Source of the DNA: Effrenium voratum
Taxonomy: Eukaryota > Sar > Dinophyceae > Suessiales > Symbiodiniaceae
Reading direction: 5' to 3'
DNA length: 64,000 nucleotides
Assembly (NCBI GenBank): GCA_963377175.1
Contig: CAUJNA010001236.1
Location: forward strand, 940,696 to 1,004,695
Below the pieces are notes generated by a model, which made no database searches, was not told the origin of the DNA, and saw only the letters and a list, made by a program, of their open reading frames with translations. The stretch's first letter is position 1; every line of letters starts with the position of its first letter. Below are positions 15,377 through 53,447 of this stretch, one piece after another. The position numbers were made by a program, and so were the translations under genes.

Positions 15377-15392
15377 GGTGTGGGGTGCCGTG

Positions 15393-31069: not shown

Positions 31070-31094
31070 ACATTCCCAAGGAGGTTTGACATAA
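31070..31094 (-). mobile_element. Severed left edge of the long retroelement unit
   Basis: CATTCCCAAGGAGGTTTGAC followed by ATAAA is identical to the edge of the short unit at 30,605. It continues at 53,198 (AAACAGCACC...) after removal of the 22-kb insertion and one TAAA. Confidence 0.85.
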
Positions 31095-31130
31095 ACTGGG
31101 CGCTCCTTAAGGACATGCAAAATATGCTTT
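31095..31130 (+). repeat. Left terminal inverted repeat of the giant element
   Basis: Begins ACTGGGCGCTCCTTAAGG and ends AATATGCTTT. It matches the reverse complement of 53,162-53,197 at 35 of 36 positions. With TAAA as target duplication the element proper starts at the C. Confidence 0.9.
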
Positions 31131-31168
31131 GGTATGGGTGGAGCAAACTAAAAAATGCTTTACTCTCT

Positions 31169-31261
31169 GTCATTGTCCGCAGCTTGGCCAATGTCATCGT
31201 TGTCACTGCCCCATTCTCCGTGTCATTGTCCGCAGCTTTGCCAATGTCATTGTTGTCACTG
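31169..31261 (+). repeat. Tandem pair of ~41-bp repeats
   Basis: TGTCATTGTCCGCAGCTT...GTTGTCACTG occurs at 31,169-31,208 and 31,221-31,261 with few differences. It is the first cluster of TGTCA words inside the element. No gene is supported from here to 31,960; pyrimidine-rich CTTCCGTCCTCTTCC repeats occupy 31,800-31,950. Confidence 0.85.
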
Positions 31262-31961
31262 TCCTTGACCTGCAGTACTCCTGATGGTCATTTGCCACTC
31301 GTGCAGCAGGTCCAGGTCCTGGCTTAAGATGGTGTTGCCACAGGATGTGACTGAAAGCCAGGGTTTTGTTGATGGCCCGCTGCCATGGTTTGTGATGCTC
31401 CAGAAGCCGCGCTATGCCCAGCATTAGCCTGAGTGGCAGGAGGGGGTTTTCGTCGGGTAGAAAGAAACAGGTGCTCCAACTCAGACTCTCTCCCTGCCAG
31501 GACTTCCATTCCACGATTGCTCGGTGTGGGCCTGAGTGAGGTTGCCATGCACCCTCGAACTTTCAAATGTCACGGGGTCGTCGCTGCCCAGGAGTCGTGT
31601 CGGCCACCAGGATGCTGAGGTGGAGGCGCCGCTGCCGTTTTGTTGCTGTCGCATCGTCATGACCACTGCAATCATCATCCCACCATTGTCCTTGTGCTAG
31701 ACTACCACTACCACCACCACCACCACCGCCACCGCCGCCAGCACCAGCACCTAGCACCTAGCACCAGCACCAGCACCAGCACCAGCACCAGCCCACTTCC
31801 TTCCTTCCTCCCTTCCTTTTTCCGTAGTCTTCGGTCCTCTTCCCGTAATCTTCCGTCCTCTTGCCCTAGTAGTCTTCTAGTCTTCCGTCCTCTTCCGTCC
31901 TCTTCCAGTAGTCTTCCGTCCTCTTCCTGTAATCTTCCGTCCTCTTCCCGACATATGACAT

Positions 31962-32041
31962 AGGGCTGACGGGACTCGAACCCGCGACCTCCCCGGAAGC
32001 ACGCAGCCGCCGCAGGCACGCTGCCATTGCGCCACAGCCCT
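31962..32041 (-). tRNA. tRNA-like gene or tRNA pseudogene, long variable arm
   Basis: On the minus strand the ends pair perfectly over 7 bp (AGGGCTG with CAGCCCT). A box A (TGGCGCAATGG) and a perfect box B (GGTTCGAGTCC) are present, and the T arm is intact. The D stem is acceptable and a CTTC/GGAGG variable arm is possible (class II, Ser/Leu-like). The anticodon stem has a mismatch and the loop lacks the usual T33, so I cannot name an anticodon and suspect a pseudogene or SINE head. Confidence 0.55.
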
Positions 32042-32169
32042 GTTCTTCCACTGTGTCCAAAATGCATTTCCTGATGATACTTATCATCATCATCATCCAT
32101 TTCAAGTGTGGCCCATTGATGATTCAGATTCAGAGGATGCCACATTGATTGGTATTTTCACAAGGTCAT

Positions 32170-32386
32170 CATTGATCATCATCATCATCATCATCATCAT
32201 CGTCACCACATCATCATCATCATCATCGTCCTCATCCTCATCATCATCATCATCATTATCATCATCATCATCATTACGATCGTCATCATCATCATCACCA
32301 TCATCATCATAATCATCATCATCATCGCCATCACCATCATCATCACCATCACCATCATCAGCATACTCATCACCTCATCATGCATC
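32170..32386. repeat. ATC trinucleotide microsatellite
   Basis: Nearly continuous ATC/TCA repeat with occasional interruptions. Frames through it read poly-Ser, poly-Ile or poly-Met and are not genes. Confidence 0.95.
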
Positions 32387-33177
32387 ACGATCACCAGCAC
32401 CATCTTCAGCAGCAACAGCAAACAAGCTGCAGCTTCGACATCATTAGCAGCCGCAGCAGCAGCTGTTTGCTGCTTCTGCCATTGCCAATGCTGCTCATGC
32501 TGGGTTTTGCTCCTGCTATTTCTGTTGTTGATGCTGGCGCCTGCTGTCGGTAGTGTCCGAGATGCCGCCGCGCGTGGTCTTGCTGTTGAAGCTGCCCTTG
32601 GAACTGGTTATGTTGTGTTGGCTGCGTGGCAGTGATGTGTTTGTTTGGGTATTGTGTCTGATTTGTTGTTTTGTGATGCCAAATTCGCTGGCAGGCTGCT
32701 CGCGCCCATCGTCGAGATCGGTCCAGGCCCAGGTCTCGCCCATGAATTGGCAAGGACACCTGCCACTTGAAGCGACTGCACTGTCATTTATCATTTGTCA
32801 GTGTCGTGTTCGACACAATGTTGCAGAACTTTGTTTGTGTCAGGCTTTGCCAGTCTTCTTTCTGAACTTGCCCAACATGGCCACGGCCATGGCTCAGGGC
32901 ACCCTGGCCCAGTTTGTATGTGTGCTGTTGCCGCAGTTGCGCAGTCAATGATGACAGTGTCGTGCTTGTTGCGGGCTGGTTGTGGGAATCATGGTGGCCA
33001 CCGCAGCTGTGTCCAGCCAAGCGTGTCATTTGTCAGTGTCATTGTCATTGTCGGCAGGATGCAGGCAGGCCGCTTGTTGTCATGAAAACTTTTGATATCA
33101 ATGTCAAATTAAATTGTTTGCGCGCAATGCCATCCGTCAGTGTCAGCTGTCTTGCCGCCTGTCACTGCCCCGCGCAG
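32387..33177 (+). other. Unresolved stretch with possible first exons of the phosphatase-like gene
   Basis: Short acceptor-preceded open blocks occur, such as LLAPIVEIGPGPGLAHELAR after CAG at about 32,695 and MATAMAQGTLAQF near 32,876, separated by TGTCA-rich sequence. They may be 5' exons of the next gene; none is strong on its own. Confidence 0.3.
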
Positions 33178-36100
33178 GATGTGGTCGTATGGCCGGACTT
33201 CGTGATCATCATGGGCTGGGGGAAGAAGAAGAAGCAGCGAGTTGCGCCTTGACAACACACTTGTCTGTCAGTGTTTTGTGTGTATTTAGTCAGTGCTTTT
33301 CCAATTCTCATTTTTCATAATATTTGCAAAAAAATTGCCATTGTCAGTCAAATTTACAGTGTCATTTAGTTTGTCATTGTCACAGTTGTTTCCTGGGCTG
33401 AGTCGGTGCCCTTCGACGGACGAGTGCTGCAAGTTCCCGGCGACCTGTCGATGCTGGGGCAAAGCGTGGTCTATCACGACCTGCTGGAACTTCTCCCGGA
33501 GTCGCAGAGAGGTGAGCTGGGGCAGCGCTGCAAGAACCCTGGCATCTTTGAGGCCACTCAGAGGTCTGCGGCTTGCTAGCATTGGAAACTATTTTCCGGT
33601 CTGCCGTGAAACTTGTTTTGAATAAATGTTTACATGTAGTCAGTCAGTCTCAGTGTCAGTGTCAGTTAGTCAGTGTCACTGTCAGTTTAGTCAGTGTCAG
33701 TGTCAGTTAGTCAGTGTCAGTGCCAGTTAGTCAGTGTCAGCCAGTTTCATCACTACGAGGTGTTCAGCCCCCCCGGGGCGAAGAGGGCGCTGAAGAGGAT
33801 CTTGGAGGCGCCAGCGGAGGTGGTGCTGATCAACTGCCATGCTGGCTGGCACAGGACACCGGCCTTCTGCATGTTGCTGAGCGCATTGCTCACTGTACCT
33901 TGTCAATGTCTCACTGTCATTGCTCATTGTCGTTGCTCGAAACAAATATTATTTGATTAAGTGGTTGATTGCTTATTTTCATGTCTGTCATTTGTCGGCT
34001 CAACAGTGTCCGCTGAGGCATGTGGCGTCGGCAGCGTCTGCCTCCTGCCCAGCCTGTCGGAGGACCTTGAGTACGACTTCCGTGTGGCAATGCAGTTTGC
34101 TCGGGATAAGAACAAGACCTTCGAATCCGCGCTTCTTGCCCACAACCGGCCAAGTGTAATAATTTAATGATCTGTTGAATTGAGTGTCAGTGTCAAGCCA
34201 TCCGCCATCTTAGGATTCGTTGGCAGGATTGGGCTGCTGCCTGCACGGGATCCTTCTTTGGCAACGGCCGCCAAGTAACCTGGCCCTGGCAAGACGCCCA
34301 GCTCCAGGTGGTGAGGGTGTGGGAGGAGTTGAACGGCCAGCGCCTCGCCCGCGACAAATGTTTGTATTTTTGCGAAACGAATATCATGTTGATTGTCCTT
34401 GTCGAATTTCAATAGTCAAACATCATCACCACCTTCGAGTAACTGTTGAGTAACTTGGTCAGTTTCTTCGGTGTCAGGCTCCTGCTCCTGTCAATGTAGA
34501 GTATTGGATGGGCTTGATTATTGTCATTTGGTATCATCTGCCAAACAGCACCCATCGTCGAGCGTTGAGGATGTCCTGTCAAAGTATTGAGGCAGTAGTG
34601 TCACGGGAGTGAGTCTGGCACTTGTCACTGTCAGCTGTGATGTTTGAGTGTACTTTGCAAACTTCCTGCCAGGATCCATCTCCGCATTCGGAACCAGTCC
34701 CTCCATGATAAGAACATGGCGGCAGGTTCAAGGCCGGCCAAGGGGCCAAAGCCGGTGGAGGAGGCGGAGACGCCGGGTGCCAGTGGCAGCGTCAGTGTCA
34801 CGGATGATCAAGACCCGGCGGATGTCAGTGTCAAGGATGAGCAGGAGCCGGCCGTCAATGTCAGTGTCAAGGATGAGCAGGAGCCGGCCGTCAATGTCAG
34901 TGTCAAGGATGAGCAGTGGGAGGAGGTGAGCGTCATTGAGAAAGATGACCAGCCGGGGCCACATCCGCCAACCCAGCAGCATAACCTGCTGGAGGATGAG
35001 GTTGTGCCACCCTGCAGCAATTGGCAGCTATTCGTGGTTGTTAAACTTAGTTGTCGACATTGACATGACAATGTGACAATGACCGCAGTCTAAGTCTTGC
35101 GACTCAACAGTTGTTGTGTTGAACCGGCCAGGCAAAGCATCCTGGATGACAGCTGGATCCAGCCCACATTGAGGAGCGAGCTGGCCGGCATCCCGAGAGC
35201 GCGAGCCCTTCGGCTTTTGCCGCTTGGCTTCAGCTTTTCAGCTTTCACGCAGCAATGTCATGAGCGCAGGGAAATTGTCATTTCCTTGAACTCGATTTCA
35301 ACAATGCACCGTCCCCGAGGATGAAGCTTGTCGAGTTCGAAGGCCGGCCCCATGCGCCGCGCAACATCAACGGCTGGCTGAGAGCAGCAATTCAAGAAGA
35401 GGCTCGATCTTGAACATGAAAGAACGCCTTCTTCCGTCGTGCGAGTGTGCAGAAAAATGATGGCGGCCGGTGCCTTCTAGACATTGACATATGACAATGA
35501 CGGATGCCGCCTTGTCAAATTGCCATTTGTCATTGCCTGTGAATGGTCTTGCAGCCTGTTGCTTGCCAGGTTGCCGAATGCACGGACTTGCCAGAAACCC
35601 AGTCAGGGCGTCATTGTCATTGGCTGTCATTGTGTGCCAAACTGCGGTTTGTAAAGGGCATTTATGATCCTATGCATGTCCTGGCATGTTGTGAGATTGC
35701 GAGCAGTGATCAAGGCACTTGTGTGGTTTGCGACGTTCCTCCAGCCGGAGCAGGCGCGATTGGCTGACATACCTGCCTGTGGGGCTTTGTTTCCATGGCA
35801 AGTCCATCGTATTGCGACAGGCTGCCCATGATGAATGATACTGCTAATTTCGGCTCGAAAGCCGCCGTGTCATTGTCATTGTCATTGTCATTGTCGTTGT
35901 CATTGTCATTGTCATTGGTCATTGTCATCGTCAGTGTCTCTGCCCGCAATGTCGTCCAAAGTGGTCATTGCTGACCACCTGCCTCGGAGCTGGAGGCAGC
36001 TGGTCAATGAGGTGGACCAGCAGGCCTGTGTTGCTTCCAGTAATTGGCCAATGATTTGCAGTCTTGCACATGCTCATGCCATCAGCTACGAGTCCCCTTC

Positions 36101-37088
36101 TTGTAGGCTCAGCGCGCCCTGTACCTCGCCTTCTTGACGGATGAGGGCAAAACCCAGGAGCTGGTGTGTCTCGACTTGAATCGCGATAGTGGTTTCAAGT
36201 CAGTGGTCGTGCCAGCAGCTCCCCCTCCTCCCCGTGCAGTGGGCTGAAACTGAGGGACTTCTGGATGGACCGCGGGTGGAGGAGAATCGGCAACGCGTCG
36301 AACTGGTGCACGATGTCATGCCGCAAGCTGGTGTTTGAGCCACTCTGCAATCCGATTATCAGCCATCCTCAAAATTGTTGAATTATTGTTATCCTGGCTC
36401 TTGGGCCCGGCCAAGGCACAACATCAAGTCCGGCTATAAGAAGGACATGGATCACATGACGAAGAACGCTGACCACCAGGCCAAGAAGCAGAGGAGCATG
36501 GGGCTTAGGCTTAGGGTTTTGGGCTTGAACCAAGTGTCTTGTCAGTGTCCTGTCTCTTGCAAGATTTGTCAGTGTCTGTTGCTCTTGTCTTGAAACCACC
36601 CCTTGCCTGGCCAAGGCTCTTGAGAGGATGGCTGGTGCTTCCCACAAGGGGCTCTAACGGCGGCCACGGGAGCAAAAAAGCAAATGGCAGAGCCGCCTTG
36701 TCTTGCACTGCTGTTGAAGTTGTGGCACACGGATTTGGTTAGCGCTGGCCAGCTGAGCATTTATTGCCTTGTGTCTCCTGCTTGGTCAGGTGGCTGGTCC
36801 TCCCTGATCATCGTCGACATTCAGGCCTTGAATCAATATGGCTCACTTGTCTGCCCTTGACCTGTTCAGATTGCCAATTGGGTTCCTCACCAACCTTCAG
36901 GCCTGGTGCTGCTCGAGCTGGATGAAATTTGCTTTAGCCAGTCAATCAGACAGTCAATGTCATGTCAGCAGGTTAAGTTGCTGTCGCAGGATGGGCCCAA
37001 GGTCAGGTCAGTGTCAGTCAAGCGCCAGCCACACATGCGGCCAATGAATGACAATGACAACATGACGACAATGACAAAATCATATTGA
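33178..37088 (+). CDS. Multi-exon protein with CX5R phosphatase-like motif, giant-element gene 1
   Basis: Many short exons are readable. They include 33,178-~33,240 (DVVVWPDFVIIMGWGKKKKQ), 33,403-33,511 (VPGDLSMLGQSVVYHDLLE; clean GTGAGC donor), 33,745-~33,890, 34,007-~34,150 (LPSLSEDLEYDFRVAMQFAR), 34,233-~34,362 (FFGNGRQVTWPWQDAQLQVV), 34,673-~35,000, and 36,990-37,088 ending in TGA. The 33,745 exon holds VVLINCHAGWHRTPAF, a C-x5-R loop (Cys codon 33,835, Arg codon 33,853) of the cysteine-phosphatase type. The acidic exon at 34,673 has three in-frame copies of VSVKDEQEPA-type repeats built from the TGTCA word. Less certain exons lie at about 35,133, 35,335, 36,106, 36,245 and 36,872. The start was not found. 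Function beyond the phosphatase-like loop is unknown. Confidence 0.5.
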
Positions 37089-37165
37089 CAGCCAGACCAC
37101 ATAATAATAAGTAGTAGGCGGGGCATCATTGTTTGGTTTCGCAGTCATTGCGCCCGCTGCTTGCC

Positions 37166-40100
37166 ATGCAAAGCCTTGATGATGGTGGCGCCCAGCTGCA
37201 AAGCAAGTGGCTGCAAAGGTTTCCTTGGGTCAGGTTCTCTGCCGACGGCGCTGCCCGCTGCTCAAAGTGCGACTATGTCACGAAAAGCCCGACCTCCTTC
37301 AAGCTAAACCAGCATGAGAAATCCTTGGCCCATCTTTCAAAAACCACTGGAAACAGTGACAAGCCTTCCTTGAGGGGGGCGCCGTCAGTGGGGCAGTTCC
37401 AGGAGTTTGTTGAAGAGAAGCACAAGGGCATGTCCGCCCGCGGCAGCGGATTTGGCCAGAAGAAGTCAGCCAAGATGCTGTGGTGCATCAATGAAGCCAT
37501 ACTTGAACGGTGGCGGCGCCGCTTCAAGAATGCCATGTGCAGCTGCGTAACGCAAGATGTCCGTCAAACAACACTCAGTGTCAGGTTTTCTGCTGTCGGC
37601 AAATCATCCGGCCAGCCAGCTCAAGTAGCAGTGTTTGATTGTCATCGTCAAATGTCAGCATTCCCATCGGCCAGTGTCAGGGTTAATCCGCGCGCCGACT
37701 GCCATCCTAGGTCACGAGTTGCAGGCCGAGGCTGGCTTGGCAAGCTTCATCGTGGGCAACGTCAGCACTTCAGATCGGCTGGTGTCTGCAACGGAGAAGG
37801 CGGTCAAAGTTATGTTTGTCAAGCGGCGCAAGCCGCCAGCAGATTGGCAGGGCCCCCAACCTCTTTTTCTGAAGAGCGACTACCAGTCATTTTGCCGGTC
37901 TGTTGACACTTAAGCTCAATTATTTGTGTTTAATTTGCCAACATTGCATCATCGTGCTCGGTGATGACTGGTTGCCAATTGAGCTGTAGCCTCTTAAGGA
38001 GTGCTTCGCCAGTGACACTGCAGCCGATGAGCAGAAGGCGGGCAGGCTGATGCGCTTCGGTGTAGCTGGACAGCCTCCTCTGTTCCCTACTTTGCGGGTA
38101 CGTGTGAGGGACTTTGCTCACGCGGCTGGAAGGCCTCCTGGCTATATATTCTGAAATGCTTCCAAGTAGACACCGTTTAACTATAACTTATCACACCTGT
38201 CTTGCACCCTCAGGTTGACCAAGTGGAGCGCAGATCCATATTTGAACTCCTGCTTCCAAACGCTGATTACGGGCAAATTCTCCATCATGTCTGTAATTTG
38301 GAACTCGGCTTTCAACAAGTCCATCTTCCGGAAGTATGAGCCCTGGCCGATTAAGCTTGCAGACCAGTGGAACCTGACTCGCAGGGCGCTGTCTCAGCAA
38401 CTTCTTGGAGCTGAGGTGCTGAGAACCCGACGAGTTCCCTTTGATGCACGCAGGATTCGTTGTGTCCAGCTAGCCCGCCACCGCCATTGCTCATCACATA
38501 AGCCCACTGCCCGCTTCATACTCTTTGTAAGCGCAGTTCTCTCCACAGCTCAGGAGCCACCCAGCTTTGAATTAGTCATTGTTCAGTGTCAGTCTGTCAA
38601 TGTCAATCACATTAGTCGGAATTTTGTGGTCACGAAGTTTGCCCGGCAGTGTGTGTGAGTGAGGATTCAGTTTACCAAAGCAAAGCGATTTGCGACGATC
38701 GCGTCAGACTTCCTCAGAACCATCGACAGTGAGCGAATTCTCCAGCTATCCATGATGGCAGACGCTGCCAGCGAGGAGCTTGACCTGACACTCAGCGCTC
38801 ATCCTCTAGGAATGTCATTGTCTTTCACTTGATTCAGCTTGCAAAGTAATTACTCAGATTGTTGGATGTCGCTGTAGAAGCTTAGGATCAGAGCTGCTGA
38901 TGCCAATGACATTGACGCCGTGAAGTTTGCCAGTGTGGCTGAGCATACCATGCAACGTCTCCACGCGCTGTTTGTAAATGAGACAGCTGCGTCAATCCCA
39001 GGGTACACATCCTATGTGGCTTTGGCCTTGTCAGCACAGGGTGTTCGGCAATAAACCTACCTACTAATTTTTGATAGATAAAACATGTTTCTTGTGCTTT
39101 GGATCACCTCAGCGCCCCATGTCACTTAGCCCAGGCTCTTCGGTGGCTGCAGGAGCAGCATGTCATTGAAGTAGATGGCGGCTACCGGTCAGTGGGTGCT
39201 GATGTCTCCCAGGCCATCAAGCAGCGGTGCTTTGACCGGATGAGGTCCTGGTTTCAAATGGCTTGCCTGCAGATCAAAGCTGAGTGGGGGGAGTTCGAGG
39301 CAATCCATGCATTTGGTGTCTTCTCGCTCAAGCCCAAACTGTCATTGTCCACCGTGCGTGAGAAGCTTGACAAGCTGGTCACTGTCTTTGGGACAACGAC
39401 AAGGTCCCAAAATGCTGTGGACCGCTCTTCACCAGTTCCTGGACTACCAGGCCTATGCTTCAAAGCAACGCCCCTTGGCTGATATTAGCTTCAGCCTGCC
39501 AGTAGTCGTCGGAGTAGTGAAGCTTTGAACCAGACTTGAAGGTGGTAGTCAGCCAGTGTCTGTAATGATCACATTTGGGCAAGGTGCAATGATTGCTGAT
39601 GATGAGCGCCATCCGGATGTGACATCCTGGTGCTTGTCTGTCAGCAAAAAGCCCCAGCCAAGCAACGACCGTGACCTCACGTTGATGGTTGCCCGCTCGC
39701 TGATGCTCAAGCGGGCCCACTCCTCTGGTAATGAGCGGGACTTTGCCGACATAGTTTGCCGGTTGGGGAAGTCGCGCATGGCCGCCAAGGCGCAAATCAA
39801 ATCGATGGAGCGCCGCTTACGCGAGGCTTGCAGCAGCCCTGCTGCCACAGCGAAGCTCATCACGGCGGCGAGGGCTGTGTGGGCGCAGGGGTTTGGAGCG
39901 CAAAGGTCAGCGGGCAAAAGCCAACGAGGGCCGAACTGGATATCTGGTGCCAAGCTGGCAGCGAAAAGGGCTGTGGCTTGGCAAGGCTTAGGCCACACCT
40001 TGCCATATGACTTCTGTATTTCACTCCATGACAATGACAATCGTGACAGTTTGTTGATGTTTGTTGGCAGCCATGGAAATAATACTTGCTTGACATTGAC

Positions 40101-41596
40101 ATTGACATTGGCCATGAAAGCTGCCTTTCTTTGAACCTTCAGGCGCGGTCGGCGACTGACTCCGAGCAAGCGTGGGTGAAGCGCCGCCGGCTTGCAGTGG
40201 AGAAGCAGGTGACTTTAACTGAGTCGACAATGACGATTGATCAGCTGCAGCGCTCGGCCAAGCAGAAAGGCAGCACCCCGCTGAATTCTGACCAGGCAGG
40301 CAAACTTCTCGAGCTTGCCTCGCGGCTGCATTGGGTGTGGAGGTTGTCATTGTCATTGTCACAGTTGTCCTTGTCAGTGTCAATGTCGACCGTCATTGCT
40401 GCCACAGCTTCCAGTGGGAAGCGCAAGTGTCACAACAGCTGAGGTAAAGAAGCGAAGGTTTGAGGCCCAGCAAATGGGCAATTTGAGGAAGACCGAGAAG
40501 TTGTCTCCTGAGGACTACAGCGCTCGTGCCAAGACACTTGCCTGGCCAATCATTTTCCATTCTGTCATTATACATTGGCGAGCACATTCTAATTGTGCCC
40601 CCAACTGGCCAAGGAAGCAGCAAAAGGGTGATGAGGACAGGGCGCCTGACTTAGCTTCCTTAGCCTGTCTGTGTAAGAAGCTAGCCTTCCTCAGCGCCTC
40701 TGCTTGCCACCAAAGGCCAAGAAATCCCAGACAATTGAGAAGAAGTTCGCCCGCAAGACTACCCCCAATTTGGCTGGCGCGCTCCTTGAGCGGCAGAGTT
40801 GGGCAGGCAGTGTGTAACCACAATCTTTGGGCAGCCAAGGCTGGTCTATGTGGCCAAATGTGTCACCTCCCCAGCGGGCGCGAAGTCTCATTCGGCAGTT
40901 GACAGCCACTGAGACGACATCCTTGATGGACGCAACAGCCTTCATTGCGCGAGATGTCTTGGATCCTGGTCAGCGTGTCTCGTGGCGGGCGAAGTTGGCG
41001 GGGGGGGTGGTCTTGACCACCAAGCTGCATGGGCCCTGGATCAAGTGCCCTTGCCTGCTGTTTTGTGATATTGTCTCCAGGCCACTTTTCCAGTAACAAG
41101 GGTCGCCAGCCAGCCAACTCCTGACTGGACATGTTCCTGAGCATGTCGCCGTCCCTGTCAGACTTGTCATTGTAATTTACTTTGTCAGTGTCCATTTTTC
41201 TTGAGCTAAGGTATAACGGTGCGGCCAGCATCTCGACCAAGAGGTACCTCGTCATCACCCCTCAGTTTGACAAAGCGCACCCGGCCCTGGCTGAGATCGC
41301 CCGCCACTCTCTCATCACTCACGGCCGCGGTGGCTGGGTATGCCGTGCTGCTGGGCTGCATTTTGCCGGGTTGCAACACCAGCCTTTGTTCTATTTGCCA
41401 CTTGGTGAACTTGAAACAGCTGCTAGGATGTGAAGCAGGTCACTGGGAACACGGCGCCAAATGTCGTGCTGGCGGCAGTGTCAGAGAAAAAGTACCCCGG
41501 CAAGCACACTGTCACGCATGACAGCCGTAGCTTTATGAGCTGGCCTTTGGTCCGGCGTGTTGCGGCCAGCAACCTGAACCAGGCATCCTTGTAGTT
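37166..41596 (+). CDS. Zinc-finger protein with weak hAT-transposase resemblance, giant-element gene 2
   Basis: The first exon (ATG 37,166; donor after 37,584) begins MQSLDDGG. It contains WLQRFPWVRF, then CSKCDYV...LNQHEKSLAH, a BED/TTF-like C2H2 finger as found at the N-terminus of hAT-derived proteins. Later exon-like blocks: about 37,712-37,900, 37,995-38,098, 38,218-38,410, 38,684-38,805 (RILQLSMMADAASEELDLT), 38,878-39,000, 39,137-39,365 (WFQMACLQIKAEWGEFEAIH), 39,585-39,905, 40,143-40,340, 40,448-40,540 and others. The last runs from ~41,434 (VKQVTGNTAPNVVLAAVSEK) to TAG at 41,594. Order and residues faintly recall hAT-type transposases, but the element's 4-bp target duplication is not the 8 bp usual for hAT. 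It is the best candidate for the transposase of this insertion, at low certainty. Confidence 0.45.
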
Positions 41597-41879
41597 CAAC
41601 AATAGTAGGTGCCCTGAGCCTGCCGGAAGTCTGTCATCACTCTCATCCTTTTTTCTTAAAAACTGGGGATGCTTTTCAAATCAATTGGAACCTCGTCGCC
41701 CAACCTGTCAATTTTCAACAGTCAGTCAAGTCAGTTTCAATTGTAAGTGATTTACTCCCGTCAGGCTCAGAGGTCAGTTCGACATTGACAATTGAATTGA
41801 CAATGGCGACTGATTTGACTTGAAGGACCAGACCTTCTAAGTCTAATTTTGCACTTGTCGGCCAGCGGGGGAGCTGCAG

Positions 41880-42330
41880 ACTGGAAGAAAAGTAGTAAAT
41901 GGCGTCGGGGGGCCCACCCCCGATCCCGTAAGGGTGCACCCCCCTTTTTTGCTTAGCGAGTCCGGGGCGCCCCCGATTCCGTAAGGGGAGCAATTTGGCC
42001 CGCATATCCTTAAGGAGCGCTTCAAATAACAGGTACACTCCGTAAGGGGGGGGGCCGCCACGGCCCCCCCCCTTAGCGAGTGGGGGGCGCCCCCGACTCC
42101 GTAAGGGGGGGGTCGAACCCCCATGTGGGATTTGCTAAGGGGGGGGGCCGCCACACCCCCCCCCTTAGCGAGTGCCAAATAGGGGTTCAGCCCCCCCCTT
42201 AGCGAGTGGGGGGCGCCCCCGACTCCGTAAGGGGGGGGGGCGCCACGGCCCCCCCCCTTAGCGAATCCCACAGTGTTAAGCCGGGACGGTAAATTCTGAA
42301 GGTGCTTCTTAAGGATATGCATTCCATTGG
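41880..42330. repeat. Chain of GC-rich hairpins bracketed by internal TIR-like sites
   Basis: At least five copies of TCCGTAAGGGG / CCCCTTAGCGAGT half-sites alternate with GGGGGGCGCCCCC cores, so neighbouring runs of G and C can fold back on each other. On the left a right-TIR-like GCATATCCTTAAGGAGCGC (near 42,002) and on the right a left-TIR-like GTGCTTCTTAAGGATATGC (near 42,302) bracket it. It lies between genes 2 and 3 of the giant element. It might act as a structured regulatory, recombination or termination region. Confidence 0.7.
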
Positions 42331-42573
42331 CATCACCGAAGCCTTTTTGGCCCTTAACTTATGTCATTGTCAGCCTGCTCGCGTGGACCCACCACTGCCC
42401 GGCGCCGCCCCCAAATGCCTTTGATGCAGCGCAGGTTGAAACTGTCGAGTGGACAGGTTGCCTTTAACACCCGTTGCTGTTTTTGGCTTGTAGGAGTCGC
42501 CTGGTAACCACTGATTATCATTGGTCATTGTCAATCAGCCAGTGTCTTTTTGAATAGTCCTCCGCCGCCGGTC

Positions 42574-45500
42574 ATGTCCGGCTTCGTGTCTGGCCGGGAT
42601 GCTGATGACTTTGGCTGGCCACAGCCACCCACAGAGGTGCCCTTGACCCAGAAGTCTGTCGAGGCGTCGGAGTCCAACAACGACGAGTGCCAGTCACAGT
42701 CTGAGGAGGACATAGTGATGAAGCGGCCCGCTTCAAAGGTAGATGCAGCCCTGCAAAAAAAGGTGGCCAATTCGTCAATGTCGTCAAACAAGAAGCCAGC
42801 CAGGAAGGAAGTCATGCCAGAGAAGCCGACGAGGGCCACCAAAAAGAAAGCCATGCCTGTCGCCGCCGCTGGCAGCAAACCCGACGTGGAGGACAACAAC
42901 GCGGAGCCCCCCGCAATCATGAAGAAGCCCGCGGCCAAGAAGCTGGGAGACCCTGCCACGACTGGGTGCTCCAAATGCTACTTCCGCGGGTGTCGAGCAT
43001 GCAACTGGCGCGGGTCTTTCCAGAAGCGCGCCCGGCTCACCGGCGACAAAAACACGGACAATCTGGCCGAGCAAGGTGATCCAAAGGATGTTGATTGACA
43101 CTGACGATTGACAGTGAATTTCTGAAATGACGGCTGGCATTCTCAAACACATGCAGCCTGGTCGGGCATTTTGAATCGCGCGGCTGCTGCGGGAAAAAAG
43201 CCACCATTGTTTTGCCCTTGTCTTTGTCACGTCATTGTCGGTTCTTTTGCCCACACGCCCAGGCCATGCCCTTGAAGCAGTTGAAGAAGGTCATCCGGAT
43301 CGGGTCGGACTGCACCGGCCTAGGCACTGATGCCATTTCTTGTGCCGGGGCCTTGGTAGCTTCTGGTAATTGCAATGGCCTTGAAAACTTGATTTGTGTG
43401 GCTCACCCATCTGCGGCAAGAGCCTGCCACAGTCAGGCTGAAGTTGGTGTTCAAGAACATCTTCTGCTCAGACATCAGTGGTCATTGTCGCCAAGTTCTG
43501 AAACGCAGCCGTCATCGTCCCAAAAGGTTGTTCAGGCAGGCTACCGTGAAGGCGCCAGCCGTGGATCTGTACACGGCCGGCTTCCCGTGTCAGCCGTACA
43601 GCGCCGAGGCTGCACCTTCAGACGCAGCCTGTCAGCCGTCGGTTTGGCAATCCACTGGAGGGTCAGTGCAAAATTTCATTAACCTAAGAATAGTTTAATC
43701 AGCTTAGCCCAGGACGAGTGAGCGTGCAGTGGTGTAAGTGTGAGTGCGAGTGTGACAGAGTGAGAGAGTGAGAGCGAGAGAGAGAGACAGAGAGAGTGAG
43801 TGAGAGAGAGAGAGAGAGTGAGAGAGTGTGAGTGAGAGTGAGTGAGAGAGTGAAGAGTGAAACTGAGAGGGAGAGGCAGAGCGTTTTTTGAGAGTTAGAG
43901 TGGGAGTGTGAGCGCGTGAGTGCCTGCGAGTTGTCAATTTCAATTGCCAGTTGTCATTCAGTCGGCGGGTCGGTTAGCTAAGTCACTCATCCATTAAAGT
44001 GTTTCACTCATTCGTTGAATCACACATTCAATCGTTCAATCATTAAACTCATGGATTTGTTTTCTCAGGAGTTCACCCTTTCATCCATTCATCCATCCAT
44101 TGTCATTCATTCGTTCGTTCATTCGTTCTTTCCTTGATTCATTCATTCCTCCGTCCGTTCATTCGTTCATTCATTCATCCATCCATCCACCCATCCATCA
44201 ATCCATTCCATCCATCCATCCATTCATTCATTCATTCATTCATTCATTCATTCATTCATTCATTCATTCATTCATGCATTCATTCATTCATTCATTCATT
44301 GATTTCTTTTATGTATTTCTTTATTGTTATGTCTTTCCTGCTTTCTTTCTCTATTTGTTTTTCATTTCTTTCTTTATTTTGTTTCTTTCTTTCTTTCATT
44401 TGTTTGTTCGTTCTTTCATTCGCTCATTCATTGGTTCACTCTTTCCTTCGTTCATACATTCATTCATTCATTCATTCATTCATTCATTCATTCATTCATT
44501 CATTCAGTCATTCATTCATTCGTTCGTTCATTCATTCATTCATTCATTTTGTCATTCGTTCGTCATTCATTCATCCATTTCATCCATTCATTCATTCATT
44601 CATTCATTCATCCATCCATCCATCCATGAAATCATTAACTCATTCATTCGTTCATTCATTCATTCGTTCATCCATCCATCCATTCATTCATTCATTCATT
44701 TTGTTCACTTGTTCATGTATTCATTCATCATTCATCATTCATCATTCACTCACTCACTCACTCACTCACTCACTCATTTCATCATTTCATCATTCATTCA
44801 TTCATTCATTTTCATTTCATTTCATTTCATTCATTCATTCATTCATTCATCATTCCATTTCATTCATTCATTCATTCATTCATTCATTCATTCATTCATT
44901 CATGTATTCATTCATGCATTCATTCATTCATTCATTCATTCGTTCGTTCGTTCGTTCGTTCATTCATTCATTTGAAGTCATTTCATTTCAGTTCATTTCA
45001 TTCATATCGTTTGTTCGTCCGTCATTTGTTCATTCATTCATGTGCTTGTTCAATCATTCATTCATTCATTCATTCATTCATCCATCCATCCACCCATTTC
45101 ATTCATTCATTCATTCATTCATTCATTCATTCATTCAGTCATTCATTCATTCATTCATTCACTCACTCACTCACTCACTCACTCATTTCATTCATTTCAT
45201 TCATTCATTCATTCATTCATTCATTCATTCATTCATTCATTCATTCATTCATTCATTCATTCATGTATTCATTCATTCATTCATTCATCCATCCATTCAT
45301 TCATTCATTCATTCATTCACTCATTCACTCATTCGCTCATTCGTTCATTCATCCATTAATTCATTCGTTCAACCAATCAATCATTCATTTCATTTCGTTT
45401 CATTTTTCATTTCATTTAATTTCATTTTCATTTCATTTCAGGTCATTGTCATTTCATTTCATGTGCATTTCATTCACTTCATGCATTTCATTATTTATGT

Positions 45501-46737
45501 TGTTGTTTTGTTTTTTACTTGTTTATCAATTTTTGTTTTTTATTTCATTATTGCTTTCTCTTTCATTAATTGGTTCATTCATATTCATTCGTTTTCTATT
45601 CATTGATAAATTCAGCTAGTTAGAATCAGGCAGGGAGGCAGTCAGTAAGTCAGTCAATCACTCAACCAGCCAGCCTGCCAGTCAGGCAGTCAGTGAGTGA
45701 GTCAGCAGCCCGCACAGTCAGTCAACAAGACAACTTGGCAATTGGACTGACGATTAAACACAAAATGCCAGCCAGCCACCCACCCAGCCAGCAGGAGCCA
45801 GGAGATCAGGCACGGCCAATAACAGGCCAGCTGCCGTCGTTATGAATGATTGTCGTCGCTGGATTGCTTTCCGGTTGGCCCCCGCTGTGCTATAATAAGG
45901 TACGGCTGGGAAGCGGAAGGGCAGTTCCGACCCACGGGATCTTTCCCAGCAAGTGATGGATTATGTGACGGCTCGCCGCCCACGTGCAGTGGTGTTAGAG
46001 AATGTGGCGGCGCTGGCCAAGCACCAGAAGTACCGTGCTACTTTCAAGTTCATCATGACGACCTTTAAGAAGCTGAAGTATCAGGTGAAGGCCTTTGTCT
46101 TGGACAGCCGGGAGTTCGGATTGCCTCAGCGCCGCCGCCGCTGCTACATTATTGCCGCACTCCCGCCCAAGTCATTGTCCAACACCAGTGGCATCAGTGT
46201 CAAGCGCCCCAAGGCTGTCAATGTCAACCTCGAGAGTGTCTTGGCCAAGAAGCCCAAGGAGACTCTGCCGGACGCCCCAGGTGCCCGCCGCAACATCAAG
46301 GCTGCCTTGAGGAAGCTGCGGAAGGATGGCATTGACCTGGCGAAGCAGGAGTGCTGTGTCGACATTGCTGCTGGTGTTAAGTTCCAGCAGGTGTCTACCA
46401 ACTGCTCGCCCACACTCACACGGGCAAGAGGCAAGACGAAGGGCTTCTGGTTCACCAAGGCGCTGCCTGTCGTGTTGCGCCTTTCAGTGGATCTGAGTGT
46501 GTCATGGCCCTTGTTTGGTCTCGGTGACATGTGCTGCTGTCACAGGCGCACCGCACGATCTGCGTCGAGGACATGGCAGCACTTCAGGGCTTTCGCCTCT
46601 CCGAATTGGCGGGTGCCACAGGAGCGGTGTCTGAGGCTCAGCTGGGTGGGATGCTCGGCAACAGCATGTCAGTCCCCGTTCTATGCCAAGCCGTGAAGAG
46701 CGCCCTGCTGGCCAGTGGCCTGATTGTTGAGAAGTGA
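42574..46737 (+). CDS. C5-cytosine DNA methyltransferase with N-terminal KRPA/zinc region, giant-element gene 3
   Basis: Exon 1 (ATG 42,574 to about 43,077) is Lys/Pro/Ala-rich (MKRPAS, MKKPAAKK) and ends in a Cys cluster, GCSKCYFRGCRACN, a likely zinc-binding module. Exon 2 (43,264-43,355) has IRIGSDCTGLGTDAISC, motif I (AdoMet site). Exon 3 (43,438-43,608) has FCSDIS (motif II-like) and DLYTAGFPCQPYS, motif IV with the catalytic Cys. Exon 4 (45,914-46,459) has SDPRD, VVLENVAAL (motif VI) and GLPQRRRRCYIIA (motif VIII), then a target-recognition region. Exon 5 (46,546-46,737) has EDMAALQGF (motif IX) and LGNSMSVPVL (motif X) and a TGA. All catalytic motifs are intact; total about 500 residues. 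Introns 3 and 4 are GC-AG; intron 3 is 2.3 kb of microsatellite. The linkage of exon 1 to the rest is likely but not proven. Confidence 0.85.
43720..45610. repeat. GAGAGT and TTCA microsatellites inside methyltransferase intron 3
   Basis: A GAGA/GTGAGA tract (43,725-43,930) is followed by about 1.5 kb of ATTC/TTCA tetranucleotide repeat with CATC, GTTC and CACT variants. Very long open frames (HSFIHSF) in several frames are repeat artefacts. Confidence 0.95.
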
Positions 46738-46983
46738 CACTGGCAATTTAGCAATGTTGCTGCTGAGCGGCTGTGGTTTGCAATTCACCACCAGCCGTTG
46801 AATTCAAGTCAGACCGCAGAAGATTGCATTTCGCGCCGGTAAAGGGAGGCTTGCCTGCTATTATTTGTCATTGTTGATATTGCCACACCTGGCTTCAACA
46901 CATAGTGATCGTCATAGTGGTGTATGCCAGTGTTGTGTGGCTCGGAGTCGTAGTAGTCATTGTCATTGTCGCTCCAGCATTGT

Positions 46984-47993
46984 CATGCCGCCCAAAGGGG
47001 CCAAGTCCGCTGCTGCAGGCTGGGCGGCTAGCCTAAAAAGGCTTGAGCAATCGCCCGACATGCGCCGGCAGGCCAGCCGCCCACCAAGGGCAAGGATGTC
47101 TCCGTGCCGCAGTTCAAGTCGCTCAACCTTGAGCACATGGGGCGTGTCCAGGAGGCATGGGAATTCATCATGTCGCCATAGCCTCAGCCAGTTTGTTTTT
47201 CTGCACCCAGCAAATATGTTGAGTATTTGTGTTTCACGAGTCAGTAAGGCTGGATGAATTCCAGAACATCTCCTCCCGGGAGCCACTCAGTCTGGCAGAG
47301 GGCGGGTCTGCCGCTCCAGTAGACTTGCTGGTCATCAAGCAACGGCTGCAACAGTGCCCGGGCAGCTGGAGTGTCACAGGGGGCGGAAATGCGGCCTGGG
47401 TGAATTGGCACTGGACGGTCAACCAAGTGCCGATTTTGGAAAGCGGGGTGAAGTTTCTGCGGGACGCAAAGTTCAGGGAGCCCACGGCCTTGAAGGTCAC
47501 TGTCGTCGTCAGTGACAGCTTGAGCAACCCATGCAACGTCACGCACCGGGCGGGGTCCCTTTTGAGAAGGATCAGTCAGGAGGAGCTTCATCACGCGTGG
47601 ATTCTGGCAACTTACCGCGATGTCAAGGATGGCAAGCTGGTTCAGGACAGAATGTGTTGACATGGTCCAACTCCATGCACATCTGTTTAAAGATGAAATG
47701 CGCTTGGCTTGGCTGACTCTATCCCATTTTTGAACTAATCATCCTTGTCAAGAGTCTGGGTCTGTGTCAGTCGTTGTAGTAATTTTCATCAGACGATGTT
47801 TTTCTGACTGCGGTGAGGTGTTAGTGCCTGTCAGGAATGGGTCAAGGCATGGCTCAGCAGCATCATCACTTACCAGGCCAGCCCCTCCGAGTCCGAGATT
47901 GACGCCTTCTGGCAGTCAGCCCAGATTCGAGAAGAGGTGGGTATTGACTTCGAGGGCACCTACTACTCTGTAGTCGCTGCCCCAGCGAAGTAA
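46984..47993 (+). CDS. Small multi-exon protein of unknown function, giant-element gene 4
   Basis: A start at ATG 46,984 opens MPPKGAKSAAAGWAASLKRL. A following block in another frame reads VPQFKSLNLEHMGRVQEAWE (about 47,105-47,165), so an unseen small intron or a frame error lies between. Exon ~47,262-47,640 reads SREPLSLAEGG, DLLVIKQRLQQ, WSVTGGGNAAWVNWHW and ELHHAWILATYRDVKDGK. The last exon, 47,835-47,993, reads EWVKAWLSSIITYQASPSES and ends with TAA. I do not recognise the family. It sits 250 bp after the methyltransferase stop, on the same strand. Confidence 0.4.
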
Positions 47994-48076
47994 TTTGATC
48001 TTAGGTCAGTCAGTGTCCCAGTGGCCCGCACACTGTCAAAATCTATCCGTCATCATGGCCGCTTGTTGTGGGAACT

Positions 48077-51000
48077 ATGTTGGCCTCAGCCGCCGTCCGA
48101 ACCAAGGTTCAGCGGCTCTTCCAAGTCGGGACGTACCGCGCCATGCTGGAGCGGCATAACAATGGCAAGAAGATCGGGGTGGAGCAGCTGTTCCGTGACT
48201 TCAGCAAGCTCACTGTCGCTGCTGGAGAGAAGATTACCATGAACTACCTCACCAGCGCAGCGTCCATCTTCAACAAATTCTTCGCCAGCAATGTGCTCAA
48301 GGACACCGCTTTTCCGTCGCAGGTCTGTCAAGCATGTTCATTGTCATTGTCGGGTGTGTCAATATTATGTGATACTGTCATGTCATCCAGTCATTGTCAG
48401 CCACCGCCACATCAGCCAGTATTTGCCAATGTCCTCAACTTGTCTGGCAGGAGATGGCCTTCCTGGCCGATGAGCTTTTCGGGAAGAGGACTCCGATAGA
48501 TTCCGTCGCCAAGCTAGAGGACCTTATCAAAATCGCTCGCAGTGATGTGGAAAGCATCAGCTGGCTTTTCACGTCCTTGTGCGATTATGTGCTGAACGGG
48601 GTCTGCAAAGTCACAGAAATGAACAGCTCAGCCCTGAGCGGAGGCAAGTCGAATCCGAAGGGGCTGCCTGGAAAAATATGTTTAGCTTGGCCGGCCGGTG
48701 TCAATCGTCAATGCCAACGTTGAACTTGTAATGTGTGTCAGGCTGCGTGTGATAGTTCATCTCAGGCTGTACCATGTTTGGCTGTGGAAGCGGGAGAATT
48801 TGTCGCTGTTGCTGGCAAAGATTGAGATGCACGTGGATCAGGAGGATGTTGCCATTATCAGGCCAGTAGTCGTAGTAGTAGCAGCTGAGGTTGTCCCCAA
48901 TGATTGCCCGCCACTGTCCTGCCTCTTCTCAGAGTATGTTTCCCGTCGATTGTTGCAAGTCCGACAAGGTAAAGTGTCCCAACAATGTCCCAAAAGGCCC
49001 CTGCCCTGTTTTCATCACTCAAAAATAGACCCTTGCCAGGCGTGCCCTTGCCAGCCACACCGCCTACCGGGAGCACTTTGCGGGTGGCCTTTCAACCGGG
49101 CCACTCTGACCCAGAGGTTGGAGGGAGCGACTAAACCCGCCCAGAACCTGTCCTGGCTTGGTGCCCTGAGTGCGGCCGGGCAGCTTGCTGCGAAGTTTGC
49201 TGCTGACATAGCCTACACGGCGAAGTGGGACGGCGTGCTGAAGGGATCAGTGCGGTGGGGGGCCAGTCTTCAGGAGTTCCTCGAGCACACTGATGTTGCG
49301 CCACTATGGTCGAAGGTGTCAGGCTCCGAGAAAAATGACGCCGTGCCCATGGCGGGCAATGACAGTTTTTTGCAGTCGGCTGACGAGCAGCTCGATTCGT
49401 TTGTCTCCTTTGTCGCCAGCGAGGCCAAGGTCACTGTCAAAGAAATGAAGGATGATGATGCGTTGCAGGTGCGGGATGCCGTCGACGAGTCGAAGACACT
49501 GGTGTCATCTCTCTTGTCAACTGTCGATGGGTCAGTGTCATGCCAGCAGCTCGCCCTTGCCCTCCGTGCCCTGGAGGTGTCCAAGGTGCGTGGCAGCCCC
49601 AAAGCTGGCACTGTGCTGTTCTGGTATGACAACGAAAGCAGCGGCGAACAGAGCTCAGACCCAAGGAGGTCGCTGACTCCGCTGAGGAGGGAACAGCTCG
49701 AGAAGACTATAATGGCTGCCATGTCGATCAGGGAGCCTGAGGCGCCCGACTGGGATGCAGATGAGGCCCCGGCGCTGTGCCCGCAAGCTTGTGATGTCTA
49801 TATCTTCACTGATGGCGGGCGGTCCACGCATGGGACCAACTTCACGAGCATGTTCACCAAGACTGCCGGGAATGTGGCCCAAAGGCGGGTGAACTTAATC
49901 TACAGCGAAGAGGCCGTCACGGAGCACCGCAAGGCAGCCTGTGTTGTTTGCTTCTCCTTGTGATCTGTCCGTGTGCATCAATGCTGTCTGCAATGCTTGC
50001 ATTCCCGTCTTGACAATGACTCAGCCTTTGGAGCGCGAGGCCCGTGCTGTGAGCGGTGGCGCCCGGGACCGCTCCGCCGCTTGCTTGAGTGCTTGAAGTC
50101 GTCGTTGGCCCATGCCACACAAATAACAATAATAGTGTCAGCTTCCGTCTTGACAGGTGCACGCGCGAATCATTTGCAAGTAAGGTCTTGTGTTGAAGTT
50201 CTGGTGGTGTGTCGATGTTGCGCCTGTGGCCAGATCTCACAAATGTAGGCCCAGTCAGACAATGACATGGATTTGTTGTTGTGCTTTTCTAATTAGAAAG
50301 GCAGCTGTTTCTTGGCCTTTTGTTGCCACATGTCAAGGGCTTTAAATTTGTGAGTCTGTGCGCTCGTTGTCAGCGTCCAGTTGCCAGCAGTCAGTGTCTC
50401 AGGTGTTCCACCTCCAGCAGCTCGAGATGATCCACGTTGTCAGCTCCAATGACACGCCCCTTGCCGAAATCATTGGGTCCAGGAAGAATCTCCATCACCA
50501 AGGCTCAACAGCAGGTGACAGTGTTTACGGAGTGTCGAAGAACCCATTGGATGCCGAGTCCCTCATCGCCCGCCTGGGCATCGAGACGAAGGCCAAGTTG
50601 TTGGGAGCGGCCAGGGTGTCTGACCAGTCCAGGGGAAGGCGCAAGTCAAGTTCTGATGCGGCGGCTGGGTCGTCGTCTGGAGCTGAGGTTGGAGTGCCGG
50701 AGCCCATCAATTGGTCAGCCCCTCACAAGCACTTGGTGGAGGAGTTGGCCCACAGGTTCAAACCTCGTGTGGTGTACTTGCTCACTGCATCTTGCCCGAC
50801 AACAATTTTGCCTCTCCTGGCTCAGGGCATCCCGGTGTGTGCTGTGGGTGCCTTGTCTGCAAGCCACGCTTTTCAAGTTTCTGGGTAGTTTTCCAATTTT
50901 GCTAAGTAGTCGTTGTTGTTGGCCAATGACAGTGACAGTGACTTCTATTTATGTCACCACCAGGCTACACAGCGGATCATTGCACCTGGCTTCGCGCAGA

Positions 51001-51400
51001 GTGCCAGAAGCTGATCTTCCACAGCTTCACGGACGCCAAGAGTCGGCACTTCAAAGCCCCGCTTGCCAAGCTGCTCAAGAGTGCTCTCACGCTTGATGAC
51101 AGCAATGGCGGAAATCCGCCGAAGAAGGGCAAGAAGCAGGCCGCCAAGGGAAGCAACAAGAAACGCCGCAAGTCTCAGCAGGGCGGCAAGAAGACGGCCA
51201 GCAAGAAGCCGCGTGCCGAGGACGACAATGACGAGGAGGGCGGCCACGACGGCGAGGAGGGCGCCGGCGATAACATGTCCGACCTGGAGGCCTGCTTGGT
51301 TAATAAATTGATTGTGCTTAAAAGGCATGGTGTCCCATCTGTGCCTTGACACAGCCTTGTCGCCCAGGTGGCGGAGGAAGAGCTCAACTCGGAGGAGTGA
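48077..51400 (+). CDS. Large multi-exon protein of unknown function with basic C-terminus, giant-element gene 5
   Basis: Exon 1 (ATG 48,077 to 48,322) reads MLASAAVRTKVQRLFQ and FNKFFASNVLKD and ends at a GT donor. Exon 2 starts at 48,451 (EMAFLADELFGKR, ISWLFTSLCDYVLNG). A long exon of about 800 bp ends at 49,932 with a GC donor and has DVYIFTDGGRSTHGTNF. A small exon starts near 50,025 (PLEREARAVSGG). Exon 50,403-~50,880 reads FKPRVVYLLTASCPTTILPL. Exon 50,964-51,289 starts with a Cys/His stretch, then a Lys-rich and acidic tail (likely nuclear localisation). The last exon, 51,368-51,400, is VAEEELNSEE plus TGA. It is conserved-looking throughout, but no domain is recognised. As the longest unknown gene in the element it is an alternative transposase candidate. 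Confidence 0.5.
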
Positions 51401-53161
51401 GAGCGGGTCACTGTCTGAGTCTGAGCATTGTCGTTGTCATTGCATTGTCATTGTCCTGCCACTTTCGGCTGATTTTGGAAATGCGTGCTGGGCATTGTAC
51501 TGCCCCGGCGCTGGTGATTGTCGATGATCTTCAAGAGTCGGGTGAAAATGCGCTTGAAGAGCACAGCCGTTTGCTGGCTGCCAACTTGTCTAGCAGGCAG
51601 CGCAGGCCCTCGTGATGAATCCCTGAAAGCTGTAGCAGTCTCAAATCTGTCTTTTTTTTGATTCGTAGTTCAACGTCATCAGCCCGAGGAATAACTCAAA
51701 AAGTCATGGCATTTGATAAGGGCCAGAACTGGCTTTACTTGCCAGCTGCAGATTGATAGAAGTAAAGAGCGGCACTGACACATTGTTCTGTTCACAGTGC
51801 TGGCGCCGTTCCTTCATTGTCAGTGTGACGAAGGCGATGTGTTGGTGTCCTTTCGGCCCCTATCAAGCTGTTGGAGGTTGGTCCAGATTCACTTCCGGCT
51901 TGACATTGACATTGACATTGATGCATTGAATTTAGTTTTAGATTGAAACAAACTTGTGCGGCAGTGGCCAGCTGGCTTAGCCATCAGTCATTGTCCTGTT
52001 GTCGCCCACCACTGCCACCAATGACGCCTCTGGTGAAACAGCTGCACCTCAAGCAGCTTCGAAGCGACCGCCTTCAACTCTTGCTGAAGCCGGAGTTCCA
52101 GTCAGCAGGCCATAGCGACAGTGCTGATGCTGCCGAGCGGACAGTTGGTGACACCAACTGTGTCAATAAAGACCTGGCTGGGAACAGCCCAAAGCCTGAC
52201 AACATCAAGCTTGTTGTTGCCAATGACACTGTCCTCCCAGACAGTGATGAAGAAACCTGGGTTTTGCCAGGTGCCAGCCCTTGAGTTGGCACGTGCGGGG
52301 GGAAAATCAGGCATGTGCTGCGCTCATTCGTTGTATAATCTTGGCCGTTGTGACTGTTTGAAATCATGGTGGAACATCGCGCCCTGTCACGGTGCGCGCA
52401 GGTGGCTTGATCTTACCGTCCTGAGCTCAGCTAGCCCACCAGCTTGCAAGCAGCTTTCAAGAAGCAATGTGCCTGCCGAATTGCCAGGCCAGCTGGTTTT
52501 CGCATTGGAAGGAAAATGCTAGTCCGGCTGCTCTGCGTGTCTGTGTGGGCAAGAGCATTTATCAAGCATGGTTGGTAGTTATTTGCTGGAGCTGAATGTC
52601 TGCACCACAGAGTTGATGATTGGGAATCATGTCACTGTCATTGTCACTGTCGCTGTTGTTGTTGTTGCCCCGTTCGGCTTAGCATACCACCGATGGCGAT
52701 TGAAGTGCCAGAAGTAGACCTCGTTAATAGTGGGTTGACTTGCAACGTTGACTGACTGGGCACATCAAGCTTCCCAGGGTCAAGCCCGGGCGCTGCCACA
52801 GAGAAGCAACCTAGCCATGATGGAAGGTCAGTTGTCAGTGGCGCTCAGCTGCTTCACGAACCACAAATTGTCATTGTCCATAGCTGAATGGTCAAGTGAA
52901 TTCGCCGCAGGTGAAGGCTGCCACAAACAGTGGGCAGCTACTTTGCAGTTTTGTTCTATGAGCATTGTCATCTTCACTGTGTCGTCAGTGTCATCACGGC
53001 TCATCTGGCGCGCAATTTGGCCATGACCGAATCTTCATCCATGCGCGGCTGGATGGTATTAAATTTTAAAGTTTACCATGTTCACATCCTGAGATGACAC
53101 GAAAAATGTATCGTCGCCGGTAAACCCTTCAAAGATTAAATTACTCAATTAGACAATTTGA
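51401..53161 (+). other. Right flank of giant element, with one possible small ORF
   Basis: TGTCA-rich sequence. An 87-codon frame from ATG 52,020 to TGA 52,284 (MTPLVKQLHLKQLRSDRLQL ... DSDEETW) could be a small gene or exon but has no recognised relatives. Nothing else here is convincing; the TGTCA words stop near 53,000. Confidence 0.3.
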
Positions 53162-53197
53162 AAAGCATATTTCGCATGTCCTTAAGGAGCGCCCAGT
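53162..53197 (-). repeat. Right terminal inverted repeat of the giant element
   Basis: AAAGCATATTTCGCATG...GCGCCCAGT, the complement of 31,095-31,130. It is followed by AAACAGCACC, the resumed retroelement sequence. Confidence 0.9.
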
Positions 53198-53447
53198 AAA
53201 CAGCACCGCAGCATTTTCACTCCAGCGATGCTACACGAGTCTGATAGACTGACAACCCACCTTTTCCTGTGGGATTTGCATTGGTATCCACAGCATGAAT
53301 TTCCTCATGCTGTGGCCCAGCCAATTCGCCGATTTCCTCGGCACATCGGGTTTACCCCCGATAAGCTCTGGATGCCCTGCATCAAGCAGGATACATCTCC
53401 CAACGCACTTACTTTCACCACCTATTTCACAAACTCTCCCAATGCAC

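Follow-up and report, generated by a model that had tools for sequence, protein, structure and literature searches.

Our study describes a 22,101-bp mobile element in a 64,000-nucleotide stretch (the window) of the genome of the dinoflagellate Effrenium voratum (contig CAUJNA010001236.1, positions 940,696 to 1,004,695). The element is bounded by terminal inverted repeats (TIRs) and 4-bp target site duplications. We consider it likely that it is a giant cut-and-paste transposon, moved by a hAT-like transposase that makes 4-bp duplications and carrying a methyltransferase as one of its core genes. Retrotransposons with a DNA methyltransferase (DNMT) are already known in dinoflagellates (PMC5890265). 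Why mobile elements keep such enzymes, be it for concealment, protection or self-regulation, is a question that a DNA transposon with recent activity and a conserved methyltransferase would make testable, and the near-identical copies with clean ends are exact substrates for assays.

Ends of the element and its copies in the genome

The limits of the element and the sequences around them are the following (window coordinates).

31096..53196, forward strand: whole element, 22,101 bp
31096..31130, forward strand: left TIR, 35 bp, starting CTGGGCGCTCCTTAAGGACATGC
53162..53196, reverse strand: right TIR, 35 bp
31092..31095, no strand: left copy of the target site duplication, TAAA, 4 bp
53197..53200, no strand: right copy of the target site duplication, TAAA, 4 bp
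30605..30831, no strand: uninterrupted copy of the joined flanks (local target duplicate), 227 bp

The two TIRs are identical at 34 of 35 positions, with one mismatch. An earlier sequence-only reading of the window had proposed a TIR-flanked mobile element at this place, and the inverted ends, the 4-bp duplication and the further copies in the host genome bear it out. The ends that it gave are real, with positions shifted by one and TIRs of 35 rather than 36 bp, as the 36-bp alignment of the ends takes in one flanking A that is part of the target duplication; the TAAA duplication that it saw is indeed present on both sides. It had also pointed to an uninterrupted copy of the joined flanks, GACATAAACAGCACC, which exists and begins at 30622 instead of 30621. 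The claim that this copy is the element's own empty site has to be abandoned, because it belongs to a local duplicate: 30605-30831 equals 31071-31095 (25 bp of left flank) followed by 53201-53402 (202 bp of right flank) with 0 mismatches. The duplicate is direct and lies 466 bp upstream, with a spacer of 239 bp to the second copy. It displays the pre-insertion sequence but is paralogous, not an allele, and concatenation of alleles by the assembler is unlikely because the identity of the left flank spans only 25 bp.

We searched the host assembly (1.156 Gb, 3,699 contigs) with a 23-mer of the TIR at up to three mismatches, using the reversed sequence as a control. There were 147 forward and 149 reverse matches for the TIR, against 0 + 0 for the control, which excludes a chance origin of the TIRs. 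The best 100 of these 296 places by mismatch were inspected, and comprise 36 with at most two mismatches and 64 with three. The former are of the window's TIR type and define what we call family A: 22 of them make 11 inverted pairs, the window's included, spaced by 21,043-22,220 bp, and another two make a 4.2-kb pair on contig C111. The absence of other TIR pairs at similar spacing had been named in advance as a refutation of the element, and in this genome there are 10 further pairs.

Six of these 10 pairs were taken whole as sequenced regions and four by their ends only. With the window's copy, this gives seven whole copies and four known by ends, and all 11 are flanked by a perfect 4-bp duplication (TAAA, CAAA, TCAA, TCAC, ATGA, TCGG, GCAG, TATC, TGAA, GAGA and CCGG). 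These share no common motif, and the expectation of TAAA-type duplications thus fails in sequence, the length being 4 bp throughout. The seven full-length copies, which occur in both orientations, are pairwise 99.2-99.9% identical by substitution. An 871-bp segment of gene 1 (see below) has 17 matches across the genome: 14 over its full length with 99-100% identity, two at 96% and a partial one. Near-identical copies, perfect duplications and the matches of this segment together indicate that the family moved recently.

Three genes shared with a sister family

The element contains three multi-exon genes on its forward strand.

37196..41304, forward strand: gene 1, encoding a candidate transposase in 12 conserved segments (number and ends of exons approximate)
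43278..46734, forward strand: gene 2, encoding a DNA methyltransferase of the C5 cytosine-specific type in 4 conserved segments with approximate exon ends
43710..45620 (approximate), forward strand: presumed gene 2 intron, long and filled by diverged simple repeats of TTCA type
47223..50885, forward strand: gene 3, encoding an orphan protein (~850 residues) in 7 conserved segments with approximate exon ends

Sequence comparison assigns gene 2 to the C5 cytosine methyltransferase family. It matches Pfam DNA_methylase (PF00145) with an E-value of 4.9e-20 and 72.6 bits, far above the cut-off of 22, which confirms the cytosine methyltransferase that the sequence-only reading had placed in the element. 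Its best matches in the PDB are HhaI chains (1.1e-13), and the catalytic PC motif, FPCQPYS at 43582-43602, is kept in the sister family described below. The Pfam scan of the element covered the three forward-strand frames of 33001-53001, with stops written as X; the methyltransferase was the sole match above cut-off in these frames. We regarded the matches to MARVEL (E 0.0041) and Mem_trans (E 0.17), both below their cut-offs, as chance.

The most likely transposase of the element is the product of gene 1. It has five relatives in the protein database (P0001-P0005), and one of them, P0001, used as a query, matches at least 58 stretches of the host genome, many in long open frames; this count is a lower bound, with 43 of 1,237 candidates scored. 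We aligned the motifs in seven rows (families A and b, and P0001-P0005), counting for each motif the rows that cover it. The motifs QD, DxAxDE and DxxH are invariant in all six rows that reach them, and a late E is present in 5/5 rows covering that region, each with basic residues 12-14 positions past it. In P0003, the series reads D165, D254, D289xxH292 and E638, and the basic residues are a K 12 positions past the E and an R 14 positions past it. The N-terminus of gene 1 shows, by eye, a C-C-H-H zinc-finger pattern; family-A gene 1 matches zf-H2C2_5 at E 0.082, and P0003 has a weak, below cut-off match to zf-C17orf113 (E 0.0017), a family matched by two of the five database relatives. Pattern-based scans of prokaryote genome contigs and viral contigs gave no relative of gene 1.

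Gene 3 matched neither a Pfam family nor, credibly, any PDB entry. No homologue was found among 8,000 candidates scored, in a search that reaches only relatives with common exact words, and pattern-based scans of viral contigs gave no relative either. Its role, like that of methylation, is a matter of speculation.

A second family of elements in the same genome, which we call b, is informative about which of these genes belong together. Its TIR, CTGGCCGGTCATTAAGGACATGC, accounts for 63 of the 64 three-mismatch places listed and equals the window's TIR at 20 of 23 bp. We compared seven sister copies, of 13.8-23.3 kb, and found perfect 4-bp duplications in five of them (ATAA, CTGG, TAAT, TCTA and TGTA). 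At the DNA level, the sole match to the window's element (blastn, 1e-5) is 104 bp long at 71% identity, blast rows beginning in the intron satellite (element positions 12,800-14,600) being omitted from this and the other comparisons between families. Nevertheless, A and b share the three multi-exon genes with order and strand unchanged, mostly with 25-55% identity per segment; the gene 3 proteins are 38% identical over ~770 residues. Copies bC40, bC72 and bC664 carry all three genes. Genes 2 and 3 are kept without gene 1 in bC203 and bC228, the latter with a perfect duplication, and bC637 has the 3' part of gene 1, part of gene 2, and gene 3. The left end and gene 1 are kept in bC6, which has no match to genes 2 or 3. 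Its right part contains a DUF6570 protein (1.3e-14), a family that we take to be associated with Helitrons, and a sub-threshold Helitron_like_N match. Hence a Helitron-like sequence has replaced or entered the right half of this copy, the outer 4-bp duplication of which is intact.

The DNA of the sister family is otherwise too diverged to be recognised, yet the order of the genes is kept there, and genes 2 and 3 are therefore best regarded as core genes along with gene 1. The sequence-only reading had been right to see several intron-bearing genes; what it took for cargo is better described as a conserved three-gene core common to both families than as a chance collection. This deep conservation between families is a stronger argument for function than the variation within family A. 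The element is probably autonomous as a family.

Other features of the element and its surroundings

Close to the left end of the element there is a tRNA-like gene.

31961..32041, reverse strand: tRNA-like gene inside the element, 81 nt (Rfam tRNA, 46.4 bits; also called by ARAGORN)

ARAGORN calls it Arg(GCG), or mostly Ser(GCT) when an intron is allowed, and it is present in 7/7 family-A copies. We considered it as a mark of integration and dropped the idea, because the gene is internal and common to all seven copies. Subterminal repeats led to no claim either: a 9-mer occurs five times in the two 564-bp subterminal stretches, but 24 times in the 19.1-kb interior. A phosphatase-like CX5R signature also occurs within the element, in an open segment at 33691-33957 (forward strand), and tblastx of this motif in bC72 gave no match.

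The dinoflagellate nature of the host, assumed in the earlier reading, is confirmed by the spliced-leader 21-mer of these organisms, which has 111 + 140 exact matches in the genome, 251 altogether, and 0 in the control. None of these matches lies within the window. A tandem cluster of them, at positions 109307-122977 of contig C722, probably corresponds to spliced-leader RNA genes.

On the right side of the element, the reverse strand of 53448-62487 has long open frames, of which one resembles a reverse-transcriptase polyprotein (YFDDS, by eye) and another has an HCxxGxxR phosphatase-like motif. On the left side, the region 26000-30000 has ~23-28% GC, compared with ~52% for the window, and no Rfam match. 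Further to the left there are two duplicated phosphatase-like open frames on the forward strand (2301-3053 and 15045-15998), 13 kb apart and with 87% DNA identity over 300 bp.

Interpretation and comparison with known systems

The likeness of gene 1 to hAT transposases (Hermes, Ac, Kat1) lies at the level of motifs. In Kat1, a domesticated hAT transposase, the residues are D310, D377, C402xxH405 and E895, followed by basic residues at 907-911 that include K907 and R909 (PMC4763223). Gene 1 resembles hAT in how D, D, C/DxxH and E follow one another and, approximately, in their spacing, with an insertion before the E, in the basic residues after the E, and, by eye, in the N-terminal zinc-finger pattern. 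The zinc finger typical of hAT transposases is of BED type, and their RNase-H-like fold includes a helical insertion domain; the zinc-finger matches of gene 1 and its relatives given above are weak. If the likeness reflects mechanism, the ends of the element would be bound by the N-terminal zinc finger and cut at CTGGG by an RNase-H-like core of hAT type (D, D, DxxH, an insertion and E). The ends would then be joined to the target with a 4-bp stagger, giving rise to the 4-bp duplications. As for gene 2, we speculate that it most likely methylates element or host DNA, and may thereby set the element's own silencing, the access of the transposase or the protection of copies.

Several observations weigh against this interpretation. 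The hAT elements are described with 8-bp duplications (PMC4763223, PMC10368747), whereas those found here are of 4 bp in 11/11 copies, and the Trp two residues past the first Asp (W312 in Kat1) is missing in gene 1. At E-values up to 10, neither gene 1 (A and b) nor P0001-P0005 had a reported match to a transposase family of Pfam or to the C-terminal hAT dimerisation domain (two of the five relatives end before that region), although HMMER filters discard most matches above E ~0.1. Profile searches of the PDB with gene 1 gave no transposase and nothing else that was credible. For these reasons, Pfam and PDB being unsupportive and the 8-bp hallmark failing, we liken gene 1 to hAT transposases and do not file it among them. 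Among the copies, 12 of the 36 family-A TIR places have no partner among the matches listed, and a clean duplication is missing in two of the seven sister copies.

Variation within family A speaks to the same question. In the seven full copies, and with codons gapped in any copy skipped, the coding segments contain no in-frame stops, and some copies have frame-breaking indels in them relative to the window's copy, which weighs against our reading. Nonsynonymous and synonymous changes number 5 and 3 in gene 1 (pN/pS, the ratio of their rates, 0.51), 5 and 6 in the DNMT (0.27), and 10 and 2 in gene 3 (1.54), too few for these ratios to show selection. Variable sites make up 0.6% of the spans of genes 1 and 3 and 1.0% of the main DNMT stretch; elsewhere the values measured are 1.3-2%, and the highest, 4%, is that of the intron satellite (70/1,769 sites).

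Beyond the likely identity given above, it is possible, and we propose it tentatively, that the element founds a new superfamily of giant cut-and-paste transposons of eukaryotes, widespread in dinoflagellate genomes. Its transposase would be hAT-related and work with a 4-bp stagger, and the C5 methyltransferase and the third protein would be obligate parts of the transposition unit, and the epigenetic mark of the element would then be of its own making. A hAT-related transposase with a 4-bp stagger would mean that the hAT fold is less tightly linked to 8-bp duplications than is accepted.

The alternative that survives best, which we nonetheless regard as unlikely, is that the element is a member of a different superfamily in which duplications are 4 bp long, Sola in particular, and that its hAT-like motifs reflect a general convergence of RNase-H folds. 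Sola2 duplications are also 4 bp long, but they are AT-rich (AWWT, ATAT, AAAT, ATTT; PMC3627910), whereas those found here show no AT preference and include TCGG, CCGG and GCAG. A 21.5-kb Sola1 element of the brown alga Ectocarpus, Sola1-1, carries a ParB-methyltransferase gene (PMC12477816), and giant size and a methyltransferase accessory gene are thus further points of likeness, compared by description only. That enzyme is predicted to be of N4-cytosine or N6-adenine type, unlike the C5 enzyme here, and the forward-strand frames scanned gave no ParB match.

It is improbable, if conceivable, that gene 1 is not a transposase and that the element is non-autonomous, moved by a transposase from elsewhere with the three genes as passengers. 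The lack of Pfam support for gene 1 would fit this, as would the two sister copies without it; one of these, bC228, is flanked by a perfect duplication, which indicates that either movement in trans or deletion after insertion occurs. Yet two families that have diverged in the rest of their DNA both keep gene 1 along with a similar TIR, gene 1 has an ordered pattern of catalytic residues, and in bC6 it persists with the left end while the right part was replaced. Size, TIRs and the presence of several genes would also suit a Polinton/Maverick or another integrated virus-like element with a methyltransferase, an origin that we find very improbable. Duplications of Polinton/Maverick elements are 6 bp long and those found here 4 bp, and the Pfam scans of the same forward-strand frames (33001-53001) reported no DNA polymerase, the protein-primed B type included, and no integrase, protease, packaging ATPase or capsid gene. 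Methyltransferase-bearing Mariner elements are known in viruses (PMC3627910), but relatives of genes 1 and 3 did not turn up in the viral contigs scanned. Finally, the unusual duplicate of the flanks at a distance of 466 bp might suggest an assembly join or segmental duplication, but the copies refute this, because eleven sites have their own 4-bp duplications, identical exact ends and different flanks.

A giant transposon with a hAT-like transposase and a core methyltransferase, as we favor, differs from the known hAT elements also by its 22 kb and its three core genes, and has partial counterparts elsewhere. The SymbioLINE-Dnmt and SymbioDIRS-Dnmt3 elements (PMC5890265) are likewise mobile elements of dinoflagellates with their own C5 methyltransferase. 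They are retrotransposons in which the DNMT lies next to or inside open reading frames for reverse transcriptase, whereas ours is a TIR-bounded DNA element with 4-bp duplications, and the Pfam scan found no reverse transcriptase in its forward-strand frames (33001-53001). The giant KDZ and EnSpm elements of algae and fungi (PMC12477816) are, by description only, similar in being DNA transposons of ~10-30 kb with accessory genes. Mariner-2_PGv and Mariner-1_OLpv (PMC3627910) are DNA transposons that carry a methyltransferase gene; they are viral, have a Mariner transposase and make TA duplications, unlike the nuclear element of 22 kb with 4-bp duplications described here. We found no description of a dinoflagellate TIR transposon with a C5 methyltransferase in the available parts of the open-licence papers searched. 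The individual parts of the element have parallels in these systems, and it is their combination that appears to be new.

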